In this document: one piece after another, positions 29,939 through 34,097 of the stretch
How positions within the stretch are numbered: position 1 is the first letter of the stretch
Layout: every line of letters begins with the position of its first letter
DNA from: Candidatus Endomicrobiellum cubanum
GTDB taxonomy: Bacteria; Elusimicrobiota; Endomicrobiia; Endomicrobiales; Endomicrobiaceae
Assembly: GCA_031269735.1 (NCBI GenBank)
Contig: JAISYS010000036.1
Coordinates: forward strand, 1-36,087
Direction: 5' to 3'
Length of the DNA: 36,087 nucleotides
The notes under the pieces: generated by a model
What the model saw: the letters and a program-made list of their open reading frames with translations, nothing else
Told to the model about the DNA's origin: nothing
Databases searched by the model: none
Position numbers and translations under genes: made by a program

Positions 29939-30574
29939 TTAAAAAATAATACCACTTAAATTTGTCACAAAAAAATGAATTATAGGATATAAAATACTCC
30001 ACGCTAAACCTGAAGATAATACTATAAATAAAATTATTAAACATACAAAGGGATTTAAACTTAAATAACTCTTAGAAATTTTTTTAGGTAAAAAATAAGC
30101 AACAACTTTCGAACCATCTAATGGAGGAATTGGTATCAAGTTTATAACAGCAAGAACAAGGTTTATATTAAGCATTACATACAAAAAATTTTCTATTGAT
30201 CCGCCAAACCCATTAGCAAAATCTGGGAATTGACTAATCACGCGTATTCCAATACCGGAACACATAGCAAGCAATATATTGGATGCAGGTCCTGCAAAAG
30301 ATACAATAGCTCCATCTAACTTTGGATTCTTTAAATTAGAGTAATTTACAGGAACAGGTTTAGCCCATCCAAAAAGTATTGGAGCTTTTATAAATAATAG
30401 CATAGCTGGGAGAACTATACTTCCAAAAAGTTCTAAATGAACAAAAGGGTTAAGTGTTATGCGTCCAAGATCTTTTGCGGTATCATCACCTCTCAAATGA
30501 GCTACATATCCGTGTGAAACCTCATGAATTATAACTGAAAAAACAAAAACAACAATATATACAAAAATTTCCAT
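29939..30574 (-). CDS. Site-2 protease family membrane metalloprotease (M50)
   Basis: Intramembrane zinc protease homologue. Zinc ligands are the HExxH in IHEVSHGYVAH (about residues 17-27) and the Asp in NLIPIPPLDGSKV (about 150). Four or five hydrophobic helices make up the rest; the protein is 211 residues with no PDZ domain, placing it with the small YwhC/Rip-like M50B group rather than RseP. The substrate is unknown. AAGGA stands six bases before the ATG. It opens the operon with trpS, scpA and scpB, behind promoter 30720-30748 and repeat A5. Confidence 0.93.
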   Translation of the reverse strand: MEIFVYIVVFVFSVIIHEVSHGYVAHLRGDDTAKDLGRITLNPFVHLELFGSIVLPAMLLFIKAPILFGWAKPVPVNYSNLKNPKLDGAIVSFAGPASNILLAMCSGIGIRVISQFPDFANGFGGSIENFLYVMLNINLVLAVINLIPIPPLDGSKVVAYFLPKKISKSYLSLNPFVCLIILFIVLSSGLAWSILYPIIHFFVTNLSGIIF

Positions 30575-30596
30575 TTGAATTCCTTAGTAACATTTA

Positions 30597-30682
30597 GGCT
30601 CTCTAAAAACCATTACATTTTTTACCTTGCTTTGAAAAAAAATCTACAATAAATTATACGAATCAGGGTTTTAGACAAGACC
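30597..30682 (-). repeat. Family A dispersed repeat, copy A5 (86 bp, short form)
   Basis: On the minus strand the unit begins GGTCTTGTCTAAAACCC, holds the core TTCGTATAATTTATTGTAG and TTTCAAAGCAAGG, and ends in the reverse complement of GGCTCTCTAAAAACC. The ends can pair as CTAAAACC with GGTTTTTAG. It lies in the leader of the site-2 protease operon, between the promoter and the ribosome binding site. Confidence 0.85.
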
Positions 30683-30719
30683 AATTTGACTTTATAAAAT
30701 TTTAAAAATAAGACCATTA

Positions 30720-30748
30720 ATTTTATGTTTTTTGAATATATTTGTCAA
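30720..30748 (-). promoter_or_regulatory. Sigma70-type promoter for the site-2 protease/trpS/scpAB operon
   Basis: TTGACA (30748-30743) and TAAAAT (30725-30720) on the minus strand are exactly 17 bases apart. The -35 box and spacer lie inside the duplicated segment D1. The stretch 30575-30948 has no gene: it holds repeat A5, this promoter, an opposite promoter and the predicted small RNA. Confidence 0.82.
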
Positions 30749-30781
30749 TAAAAAACTATTGAAAAAATCACTAAATTTTAC
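30724..30781. repeat. Direct repeat D1 (duplicated divergent-promoter segment)
   Basis: The first 43 bases (30724-30766) recur without mismatch at 32079-32121, and similarity continues for about 15 more bases. Inside is the perfect inverted repeat TCAATA-N6-TATTGA. In both copies the next plus-strand -35 box begins 68-69 bases after the repeat starts, so a whole promoter region seems to have been duplicated around the islet. Confidence 0.9.
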
Positions 30782-30791
30782 AATTTATACA

Positions 30792-30820
30792 TTGACAACT
30801 TAAAAAATTTAGATTAGAAT
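30792..30820 (+). promoter_or_regulatory. Consensus promoter for the predicted small RNA
   Basis: TTGACA (30792-30797) and TAGAAT (30815-30820) are 17 bases apart on the plus strand. No reading frame follows; transcription from near 30827 would run to the terminator at 30918-30942. Confidence 0.8.
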
Positions 30821-30826
30821 ATACTT

Positions 30827-30942
30827 GCAAGTAAGAATGGGTGGGGTGTCCCGCGTTTCTACTTGTTTATAGTTAAAATTATAAAAATGGAATGGGACTT
30901 TCTCGTTCGGCGTTATAGCCTCTGGTTAATCCGGAGGCTTTT
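30827..30942 (+). ncRNA. Predicted structured small RNA (~115 nt), family unknown
   Basis: The unit has a consensus promoter, no coding frame and an intrinsic terminator. The 5' part can form a stem between CAAGTAAGAA and TTTCTACTTG (one mismatch, one wobble) capped by GGG/CCC pairing. TTATA/TATAA can form a second small stem, and GTCCC in the first loop can also pair with GGGAC further down. The G-rich segments stand out from the AT-rich surroundings. I do not recognise it as 6S, SRP, tmRNA or RNase P RNA. A tracrRNA was considered, but no cas gene or repeat array is present. It points toward the broken DUF3800 gene on the opposite strand. Confidence 0.6.
30918..30942 (+). terminator. Intrinsic terminator of the small RNA
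   Basis: GCCTCTGG and CCGGAGGC form a stem with one T/G wobble-type position around the loop TTAAT and are followed by TTTT on the plus strand. On the minus strand no T-run follows, so it serves plus-strand transcripts. Confidence 0.85.
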
Positions 30943-30948
30943 CGCTTT

Positions 30949-31670
30949 CTACGGGTAAATTTTCAATCCGCAGTCTTCAAATTTCCCATCCTGCTTTCTA
31001 AACTTGTTTTTCAATATCTCAAAAGCCCTGTTTGGCTGATTAGGGTTTATAGCGTATCTGCCTATCGGTCTTGCCATTAAGTCAACAAATTGCAAACCCA
31101 AAGAATTTGTTGCTTTTGGAGTAATTTCTATATTTAAATTATTCCAGTTCATTTCTCTCATCAGGTCATAGAAATTTACTTTCAACTCTTTGTCTTCCTG
31201 CTCTCCTCTCTTTTCAAACAGCAAAGTCGTCATATCATTTGAAGCGTTGTTTTCTTTAAGAAATTCTTGTATTCTTTCAATACATAGTTTGCTCGCAAAT
31301 GATATGCGTGAGGCAGTCTTTCGGCTTTAATTTTTATAGCAGGTTTATTTATAACTGTTGCAACAAGGGTGTAATCTATGCCGATTATTAAATTATTAAA
31401 ATCCGTCATAAAATTATTTAAAATATCTCTATTTTTTAATAGTGAAAATTCGTTAATTTTCTTGTGAATTTCCCTCTCGTGAAATATGATTCCGTCATTA
31501 TGAAAATATTTTAATTTTATATCAGTAAATTTAGGCAAAAGATTATGCAGATATTCCCCTTTCTTAATAATACAGCAAGCCAAAACAAACACGGAGTATT
31601 GCTGATTTGTAAAATCTAAAATATGGTCTCCGCTTTCGTCTATAAAAATAATATATTTACTATCAGCCAT
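30949..31670 (-). pseudogene. DUF3800 family protein, broken by a single frameshift
   Basis: The 5' frame (31670-31230) starts MADSKYIIFIDESGDHILDF, with the IDESG motif of DUF3800 proteins. The 3' frame (31233-30949) carries EKRGEQEDKELKVNFYDL, NSLGLQFVDLMARPIGRY and NRAFEILKNKF, the rest of the family. Joining the frames near 31255 restores FLKENNASNDMTTLLFEKRG. The break is explained by loss of one A in an A-run (TTAAAG for TTAAAAG). Function of DUF3800 is not established; it is common near mobile and defence genes. Either a recent pseudogene, a sequencing error in a homopolymer, or less likely a frameshifted product. Confidence 0.85.
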
Positions 31671-31731
31671 TTTTATTTCCTCGTATAGAATAGATAATGA
31701 AAAGATTATACAAAAATAAACAGGTAAAATT

Positions 31732-32060
31732 TCAGGCGAGTTCGTACTTTGAATATGACTTCTTATGTATTATCCCTCTTGGCTTTTCCTCTTCATCTTT
31801 CATAAACCCAAATTCAAGCTGATTTTTGTACCTGAGCCTTTCTAAAAACATCTTCAATTCTTCTTCATTATGCACTACTACTAGGTGTTCTACCCCTATG
31901 CGAACTCTTCCATCTTTACAAATTATTTTTACTCTTGTTCTTTATTTTATCTATTTTTTCTTTGCATATGTATCTTTTCATGACATTTATTTTAGCATAC
32001 CAAGCCCTTTGGTAACCACTTTTTTCTATTTTTGTGAGTTTATTCTTCCCTTTTTTTAAA
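31732..32060 (-). pseudogene. Decayed reading frame of unknown family
   Basis: Two adjacent minus-strand frames look like one former gene. The upstream part (to TAA at 31918-31916) reads KSGYQRAWYAKINVMKRYIC...KIDKIKN. Shifting by one base near 31930 continues as VKIICKDGRVRIGVEHLVVV, then a Lys/Glu-rich stretch to TGA at 31734-31732. Neither part has a good start, and I cannot name the family. The 5' end abuts a family B fragment and repeat D2. The 31671-32300 stretch otherwise holds only these repeats, the mnmG promoter and repeat A6. Confidence 0.5.
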
Positions 32061-32075
32061 ACAGTAAAAGTCAGG
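32046..32075 (-). repeat. Family B repeat fragment B3
   Basis: The minus strand reads CCTGACTTTTACTGTTTTAA then AAAAAGGGAAG, matching the first 30 bases of copies B1 and B2 with a few changes. Only one end is recognisable. It lies at the edge of repeat D2. Confidence 0.5.
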
Positions 32076-32078
32076 TTC

Positions 32079-32135
32079 TATGTTTTTTGAATATATTTGT
32101 CAATAAAAAACTATTGAAAAATCATTAAATTTATA
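32079..32135. repeat. Direct repeat D2 (duplicated divergent-promoter segment)
   Basis: Identical to 30724-30766 over the first 43 bases, with the same TCAATA-N6-TATTGA palindrome. On the minus strand it keeps TTGACA-N17 but the -10 has become TAGAAC, facing the decayed frame. On the plus side it precedes the mnmG promoter. Confidence 0.9.
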
Positions 32136-32146
32136 ACTTAAACAAT

Positions 32147-32175
32147 TTGCTTTTTTCTATATAAAAAGATAAAAT
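32147..32175 (+). promoter_or_regulatory. Sigma70-type promoter for the mnmG operon
   Basis: TTGCTT (32147-32152) and TAAAAT (32170-32175) lie 17 bases apart. Transcription would begin near 32182 and include the whole of repeat A6 in a leader of about 120 bases. Confidence 0.65.
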
Positions 32176-32190
32176 TCTTCCATTATTAGT

Positions 32191-32274
32191 AGCTCTCTAA
32201 CAAGCCTTACGTTTTTGCCTTGCTTTGACAAAAAATTTACAATAATTATACGCATTAGGATTTTCAGAGAAACC
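32191..32274 (-). repeat. Family A dispersed repeat, copy A6 (84 bp, short form)
   Basis: On the minus strand it begins GGTTTCTCTGAAAATCCTAA, carries the core ATGCGTATAATTATTGTAAA, TTGTCAAAGCAAGG and CAAAAACGTAAGG, and ends in the reverse complement of AGCTCTCTAACAAGCC. It lies 26 bases before mnmG. Read on the plus strand the core contains TTGACA (32225-32230), 16 bases, TATACG (32247-32252), a promoter-like pair facing mnmG. Confidence 0.85.
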
Positions 32275-32300
32275 CTTTTAATATAAACCAGAGGAATATT

Positions 32301-34097
32301 ATGGAAAGAAGATTTCAGGTTGTAGTCATAGGTGCAGGACATGCTGGTTGTGAAGCTGCCTTAGCTTCTGCAAGAATGGGCTTAAAAACACTCATTATTA
32401 CATTAAATGTTGATTCCATAGCAAGAATGCCTTGTAATCCTGCTATAGGAGGGATAGCTAAAGGACAAATGGTTAGAGAAATTGACGCTATGGGAGGTGA
32501 AATGGGTTGGATAACTGACCATGCTGGCCTTCAATTCAAAATTCTAAACAGTTCAAGAGGACCAGCTGTTTGGTCTCCAAGAGCGCAATGTGATAAGGAA
32601 CTTTATTCTGTTTTAATGTCAAAGTCTTTACAGAATCAAACAAATTTAGAAATATTACAATCTGAAGCAATTTCTATAATAGTTAAAAATGGAAAAGTTT
32701 GTGGAGTTAAAATACTTACTGGAGAAGAGATAGAAGCAGAGGCTGTTGTAGTAACAACTGGAACCTTCTTAAAAGGCACAATTCATCTTGGAAAAATGCA
32801 TTTTGAAGGAGGAAGATTTAATGAAAGACCTTCTTCACATCTTTCAAAATCATTAATTGACGATGCTGGATTAGAGCTTGGAAGGTTTAAAACAACAACA
32901 ACGCCAAGAATTAATACTTTGTCAATAGATTATTCAAAAATGACAGAACAGCCTGGAGATGAAAAACCAAAACCTTTTTCACATTTTACAGAAATAGAAT
33001 CTTGGAGAAAAAATTTAAAACAACTTTCTTGCTGGCTTACATATACAAATCCAAAAACACACAAAATTGTAGGAGATAACTTGGATCTTTCTTCAATTGA
33101 TATAGGGCAAGTAAACAGCAAAAGTCCAAGATACTGCCCTGCTATAGAAGAAAAAATTGAGCGTTACCCAGAAAAGACAAGTCATCATATTTTCGTAGAA
33201 CCAGAAGGATACAATACAAATGAAGTATATTTAAATGGCTTATACACTGGACTTCCATTTGATTTACAACAACAAATGATCAACTCTATAGCTGGCCTTG
33301 AAAATGCAAAAGTCATACGTTATGGATATGCTATAGAGTACGATTATTCAAGTCCCTTACAAATAACAAAATCTCTAGAAACAAAAACTTGTCAAAATCT
33401 TTTTTTGGGAGGACAAGTTAATGGCACGACTGGATATGAGGAAGCTGCATCTCAGGGTTTTGTAGCTGGAGTAAACGCTGCCTTAAAAGTTTTGGGTAAA
33501 GAGCCGCTTATCCTAAAAAGAAACGAATCTTACATAGGAATATTAATAGACGATATTACAACAAGGGGCATGGATGAACCTTACAGAATGTTTACTTCTA
33601 GAGCAGAGTATAGACTCTCCATTAGAAACGACAATGCAGACTTAAGACTTATGGACATAGGACGCTCTTTAGGACTTATTTCTGATAAAGCCTATAAAAA
33701 ATTTGAACTCTACAGAAATACTTTAAATGATATATATAACAACACCATTGACAACCTTCCAACTGATCAAGATTTATCACCATGGTCATTGGAAAAGGCA
33801 AAAGAAGAAGTGTATATTCATAAAAAATATGAGGGATACATTGAAATACAAGACAAGTTGGCAAACAAAGTGAAAAAAAATGAAGATAAAAAAATTCCTT
33901 CTGATTTTGATTATAGTAAAATAAATTCTTTATCTGCAGAAACAAAACAAAGACTTATACAAATACGTCCTCAAACAATAGGACAAGCATCAAGAGTACA
34001 TGCAATTAAGCCTTCTGACATAGCTATAATCACAATACATTTAGAAAAACAAAAAAAGGAGAGAAAGCAAAAAATAAGTGGACAATACAATAGTTGA
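32301..34097 (+). CDS. mnmG: tRNA uridine-5-carboxymethylaminomethyl modification enzyme MnmG (GidA)
   Basis: FAD enzyme that with MnmE builds the cmnm5 group on U34 of wobble tRNAs. The dinucleotide-binding start VVVIGAGHAGCEAALASARMG, NPAIGGIAKGQMVREIDAMGG, SRGPAVWSPRAQCDK, TTGTFLKGTIHLG, FLGGQVNGTTGYEEAASQG, TTRGMDEPYRMFTSRAEYRL and the C-terminal RIRPQT-like region (QIRPQTIGQASRV) are present. The length of 598 is slightly below the common ~620-630. GAGGA stands five bases before the ATG. rsmG is the last gene of the same operon, as the gid gene pair often is. Confidence 0.97.
   Translation: MERRFQVVVIGAGHAGCEAALASARMGLKTLIITLNVDSIARMPCNPAIGGIAKGQMVREIDAMGGEMGWITDHAGLQFKILNSSRGPAVWSPRAQCDKELYSVLMSKSLQNQTNLEILQSEAISIIVKNGKVCGVKILTGEEIEAEAVVVTTGTFLKGTIHLGKMHFEGGRFNERPSSHLSKSLIDDAGLELGRFKTTTTPRINTLSIDYSKMTEQPGDEKPKPFSHFTEIESWRKNLKQLSCWLTYTNPKTHKIVGDNLDLSSIDIGQVNSKSPRYCPAIEEKIERYPEKTSHHIFVEPEGYNTNEVYLNGLYTGLPFDLQQQMINSIAGLENAKVIRYGYAIEYDYSSPLQITKSLETKTCQNLFLGGQVNGTTGYEEAASQGFVAGVNAALKVLGKEPLILKRNESYIGILIDDITTRGMDEPYRMFTSRAEYRLSIRNDNADLRLMDIGRSLGLISDKAYKKFELYRNTLNDIYNNTIDNLPTDQDLSPWSLEKAKEEVYIHKKYEGYIEIQDKLANKVKKNEDKKIPSDFDYSKINSLSAETKQRLIQIRPQTIGQASRVHAIKPSDIAIITIHLEKQKKERKQKISGQYNS

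Follow-up and report, generated by a model that had tools for sequence, protein, structure and literature searches.

Between the divergently transcribed genes for a site-2-protease-like peptidase of the M50 family (29939–30574, minus strand; Pfam PF02163) and for MnmG (GidA; 32301–34097, plus strand; PF01134), the genome of Candidatus Endomicrobiellum cubanum carries an islet extending from about 30790 to 32075. The locus lies in the 36,087-nt stretch of DNA that was analysed as a whole, hereafter the window, and it raises the question of what the islet is, how it came to lie between the two genes, and what it may do in its host.

Insertion between the M50 gene and mnmG

The sequence-only reading had placed two identical segments about 1.36 kb apart on either side of the islet, and this pair is borne out: D1 (30721–30766) and D2 (32076–32121) are identical at 45 of 46 nt with a start-to-start distance of 1355 nt, and every 20-mer that is repeated within the 36,087 bases falls in their 43-nt exact core (30724–30766 in D1). 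Similarity continues more weakly beyond the core, out to about 30785 in D1 and 32138 in D2. Since this right-hand extension is non-significant when taken alone (285 of 2000 shuffles), the length of about 65 bp given here for the duplication, with the two copies annotated without strand at 30721–30785 and 32076–32138, is an estimate. D is not a general repeat, a finding that would have told against insertion with duplication: the bin (1.33 Mb, 60 contigs) contains only two good copies, and the next best match is 77% identical over 47 nt.

Relatives were fetched via MnmG from Candidatus Endomicrobiellum and related Endomicrobia, which are termite-gut symbionts of the Elusimicrobiota. The M50 gene and mnmG are adjacent in seven of them (L101 roisinitermitis, L102 incisitermitis, L104 cryptotermitis, L115, L117, L129, and L133 siamense), and the comparison of this locus, which had been set beforehand, gave the same result in every case: the divergent pair is separated by a single D, with neither the islet nor an A repeat, the dispersed element described below. 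The gap between the two genes is 182–224 nt in these relatives vs. 1726 nt in the window; subtracting 1355 nt for one D plus the islet and about 173 nt for the two A repeats, A5 and A6, leaves about 198 nt, which is the ancestral size. In addition, the left flank of the window joins D1, while the right flank joins D2. The presence of single-D empty sites in all seven relatives implies that the islet came in with a duplication of its target, and from these comparisons it was very probably inserted between the M50 gene and mnmG with a target duplication of about 65 bp. The earlier proposal of an ancestral intergenic region with one D, to which a second copy was added with the islet, thus agrees with the relatives. 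The accompanying idea that the site is a hot spot for small accessory units is not supported, as all seven sites are empty.

A tandem duplication of D that came first, with the islet landing later between the copies, is improbable, as it needs two events and two D copies are present in none of the seven relatives. A single crossover of a D-carrying circle, or site-specific recombination at D, would make D1 and D2 products of recombination, and this would account for an insert flanked by a direct repeat; recombinases also adjoin related units elsewhere, as described below. However, the islet itself has no recombinase gene, D is a core promoter segment of the locus, and no free D copy is present in the genome, so that this route is rather unlikely compared with insertion accompanied by target duplication.

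The promoters of the locus were read as the sequence-only reading had read them. In the relatives, D holds the conserved minus-strand promoter of the M50 gene, which is followed by the mnmG promoter. In the window, the near-perfect M50 promoter, TTGACA-17-TAAAAT, lies within D1 (30748–30720, minus strand) and is kept before the M50 gene in relatives, while the mnmG promoter, TTGCTT-17-TAAAAT (32147–32175, plus strand), is likewise conserved. The corresponding minus-strand promoter in D2 reads TTGACA-17-TAGAAC; this copy of the M50 promoter has lost its -10 element, as expected once it had become redundant. Each flanking gene would have kept its own promoter through the duplication, the M50 gene the one within D1 and mnmG the one past D2.

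Beyond D1 and D2 lie two copies of a dispersed repeat, A5 (30596–30682, plus strand) and A6 (32185–32275, plus strand). Their existence was correctly noted from the sequence, whereas the symmetric part in the insertion that had been suggested for them is not supported. The A family has about 40 copies in this genome and, of 42 genomes of the genus, is found in 6; neither A5 nor A6 is present at the empty sites, and they are only 84% alike, far below the 98% of D1 and D2, for which reason A5 and A6 are treated as separate insertions, probably so in the case of A5, and a role of the A repeats in the insertion event is rejected. The family is a dispersed repeat of about 70–115 bp in a subclade of Endomicrobiellum, and the left half of most copies reads CTGCTGCGTTAAAAAACTTGTGCTTAT. 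A5 and A6 have no such longer left half and have in common a short left end, GCTCTCTA, which looks like the right end in inverted form; the family is possibly a MITE-like element.

A separate observation concerns a second contig of the same bin (L051; G000 contig C49, 1–3229), which carries a second mnmG 5′ fragment with 96% amino acid identity over 113 aa, beside tol-pal. This arrangement is found in other Endomicrobiellum lineages, and the fragment probably derives from a contaminating relative in the bin.

A DUF3800 gene facing a small structured RNA

The main gene of the islet is a DUF3800 gene on the minus strand (30949–31670; PF12686), which matches the Pfam model with 38.2 bits vs. a gathering cut-off of 21 and in which both halves of the domain are present. 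It occupies two frames (31230–31670 and 30949–31233), and alignment with plasmid and phage relatives places one frameshift near 31300–31315. The motifs DESGDH and GLQ..DL.ARP are kept in this alignment, and the product is predicted to be an RNase H-fold nuclease. Because the gene is frameshifted, the unit is probably decaying here and its protein lost, unless the frameshift is an error of short-read assembly; a loss of the protein would fit a reduced genome. No close copy of the gene was found in the genus. In the collections searched, its closest relatives, at about 29–37% identity, are encoded on plasmids of Sinorhizobium, Microvirga, Shinella, Devosia, Bradyrhizobium, Methylorubrum, and Paraburkholderia and in two phages, Pseudomonas phage JBD68 and Paracoccus phage Pkon1. 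Close peptide patterns retrieved no further relatives from the genome-contig and viral-contig collections, a sequence search found none in the PDB, and the window protein matched none of the PADLOC models. The islet also contains a 65-aa open stretch without a start codon upstream of the DUF3800 gene (31732–31930, minus strand), which had no match in searches; no transposase or recombinase is present among the ORFs of the islet, nor does it contain restriction-modification genes.

Facing the DUF3800 gene, on the plus strand, is a conserved small RNA of two hairpins (30885–30950), the second of which is a terminator. The plus strand at 30818–30965 folds far better than shuffled sequences (z -5.4), and an element common to the plasmid and phage loci, AA(A/G)TGGA..GGG..CCCGGTCGGCG..GCCTCGG..CCGGGGCCTTTCGCTTT, recurs in the window at 30885–30950. 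To guard against circularity, a covariance model, R1, was trained on 12 sequences from Proteobacteria and phages, with the window and all Elusimicrobiota left out; its sole match in the 36-kb window is this same interval (60.8 bits, E 3.9e-11). In an alignment of 21 members, pairing holds in 97.9% of cells, and both-side changes, 50 such cells in all, occur in 15 of 21 pairs, as opposed to a mean of 6.3 pairs in shuffled alignments (0/500) and 2–4 in slid controls. The 12 proteobacterial and phage sequences alone yield 10 pairs with both-side changes (0/500 shuffles). Four of the seven pairs of the first hairpin show such changes, and the conservation extends to unpaired sequence, e.g., the 5′ AAnUGG.

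Most proteobacterial members have a -10-like box that ends 6–7 nt before the start of the conserved RNA. The near-consensus promoter claimed for a small RNA in the window, TTGACA-17-TAGAAT (30792–30820, plus strand), is present, and it sits 64 nt upstream, which predicts a 57-nt 5′ extension with a long hairpin (30827–30884, plus strand), a feature that proteobacterial members do not have. The RNA and the DUF3800 gene are convergent on opposite strands, with the terminator hairpin ending at the DUF3800 stop codon; together they form a recognisable two-gene unit, which the sequence-only reading had missed. The identity of the islet as a DUF3800-RNA module is close to certain.

The 66-nt element might instead serve the DUF3800 gene purely as a bidirectional terminator and have no function as an RNA, as its second hairpin is a canonical terminator abutting the stop codon. 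However, termination has no need of the first hairpin, which covaries, and conservation is also seen in unpaired stretches like the 5′ AAnUGG; moreover, sigma70-like promoters lie at a fixed upstream distance in most proteobacterial members, and the RNA persists at loci that retain no more of DUF3800 than its C-terminal end. A mere terminator is thus a poor candidate. It is still more improbable, to the point of being negligible, that the islet is decaying junk, with a DUF3800 gene that is dead and a hairpin that arose by chance: while the frameshift and the genome-reduced symbiotic host would favour such decay, the RNA matches an independently built model and has retained its pairs, and it has a promoter close to consensus.

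The structured element belongs to a covarying two-hairpin RNA family that is absent from Rfam 15, in which no family exceeds its threshold in the window and none is reported in the 12 member loci at E≤0.5. BjrC68 was considered as the identity of the RNA and rejected, as its match at one locus (L217) reaches 26.3 bits, below the cut-off of 39, and rhizobial members have no BjrC68 match. By inspection, no core sites of an integron attC were recognised.

Distribution and genetic setting

At DUF3800 loci fetched by protein similarity, the RNA is present in 16 of 17, and in most of them its 3′ end lies within a few nucleotides of the DUF3800 stop codon, with an overlap of about 20 nt with the gene in two. 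A scan for the RNA alone in 295 genomes of the phylum located it beside intact DUF3800 genes in two (G032 and G293, convergent in the latter) and adjoining C-terminal remnants of DUF3800 in two others (G071 and G103); R1 scores 63.6 bits in G032. At a weak match in G246, the flanking codons, by reading of the sequence, correspond to the DUF3800 C-terminus. The R1 family has members among Elusimicrobiota, Proteobacteria, Bdellovibrionota, and two phages, and with its recurrent adjacency to DUF3800 in unrelated genomes it falls in the class of DUF3800-associated RNAs. The RNA patterns found no match in the viral-contig collection.

The pairing is not absolute, since copies of the RNA occur without DUF3800 in Pigmentibacter, G056, and G014. 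In Pigmentibacter ruber (Bdellovibrionota; L255, 2501–2563), a member scoring 56.9 bits faces AbiEii/AbiEi, which suggests an exchange of partners. In G056 and G014, weaker copies have no recognisable DUF3800 beside them: the former lies in an island with genes for YhcG, an AbiL-like AAA protein, and Thoeris ThsB, and the latter is accompanied by two D12 methylases beside two tRNAs. As a further observation, a 300-bp block, 92% identical and with a decaying RNA copy inside (L060/L205, 1045–1340; L061/L206, 4000–4295), recurs in the defence islands, otherwise unrelated, of two Endomicrobiellum genomes, once beside two tRNA genes. That the 3′ half of the RNA in this block might encode a protein C-terminus on the opposite strand was considered and rejected, as it has no protein relatives and covariation favours an RNA.

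Elsewhere, the unit is found in mobile settings. In phage JBD68, DUF3800 begins where the repressor gene ends, and in Pkon1 a CI-like repressor is followed by one small gene and then DUF3800, while tyrosine or serine recombinases adjoin DUF3800 units in Microvirga, Shinella, Methylorubrum, and Paraburkholderia.

Known systems and proposed role

The RNAs named DUF3800-I, V, IX, X, and XI reportedly stem from a 2017 study of 224 candidate structured RNAs. No earlier description of the present family was found in the open literature searched; the 2017 survey might contain one. DUF3800 proteins have an RNase H fold, and ncRNAs have been reported near their genes (PMC10910872); several DUF3800-associated RNAs are included in Rfam (PMC11701678). 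The combination of DUF3800 with a structured RNA is thus already known as a kind, and it is the RNA family that is new to Rfam 15. The Rfam families (RF02964 DUF3800-V, RF02975 DUF3800-XI, and DUF3800-I, IX, and X) resemble the window unit in that a small structured RNA lies beside a DUF3800 gene, and DUF3800-V RNAs, in particular, are found in the same class immediately past the 3′ end of DUF3800 genes and convergent with them, an arrangement like that in the window. However, the window RNA differs from them in sequence and in its fold of two consecutive hairpins, and none of them reaches its threshold. Separately, five loci of Elusimicrobiota (L210, L213, L214, L216, and L218) carry a different convergent RNA downstream of DUF3800, GAGUAAGUCCUU...GGGGUUCC..GGUUCCUC, which resembles DUF3800-X/V by eye and is not reported by Rfam at E≤0.5.

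The DUF3800 nucleases linked to CRISPR types V-A2 and VI-F (PMC10910872, PMC12669027) have the domain, the RNase H fold, and the association with RNA in common with the window unit. However, no Cas gene or CRISPR array is seen in the islet, and the 66-nt RNA has no variable guide-like stretch, which points to a structural partner, i.e., an inhibitor or cofactor, more than to a guide. RNA-protein toxin-antitoxin systems such as type III likewise combine a nuclease-like protein with a small structured RNA, whereas the window RNA has no repeat array and is convergent rather than co-transcribed. With regard to the insertion, long target duplications were first seen in Helicobacter pylori and are often linked to restriction-modification genes (PMC1643837). 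The cases of Nobusato et al. (2000), as described therein, are alike in having a small accessory unit, a long direct target repeat, and a single copy in relatives; restriction-modification genes are frequent in those cases, in contrast to the DUF3800 gene and RNA found here.

Taken as a whole, the islet is likely to be a horizontally acquired DUF3800-RNA module, gained by insertion between the M50 gene and mnmG with duplication of the target and encoding a nuclease under the control of an RNA. The protein and the RNA probably form a complex, in which the RNA would bind the DUF3800 nuclease and may hold it inactive, license it, or direct it. Whether the pair serves as a defence or toxin-antitoxin unit on mobile DNA and prophages is evenly balanced. 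More tentatively, and with the chances somewhat against it, the RNA may belong to an undescribed and widespread family to which one branch of DUF3800 nucleases is obligatorily tied, the two acting as a mobile, RNA-gated nuclease of prophages and plasmids against other phages, with the RNA pairing also with other effectors such as AbiE.

To the DUF3800-associated RNAs, this locus adds a family that Rfam 15 lacks, one that covaries strongly and keeps a fixed geometry relative to its gene. The member in the laboratory phage JBD68, directly behind a prophage repressor, lends itself to simple deletion tests. For the endosymbiont itself, the locus is a clear-cut example of how a small accessory unit can enter together with a long duplication of its target, the empty site being seen in seven relatives.
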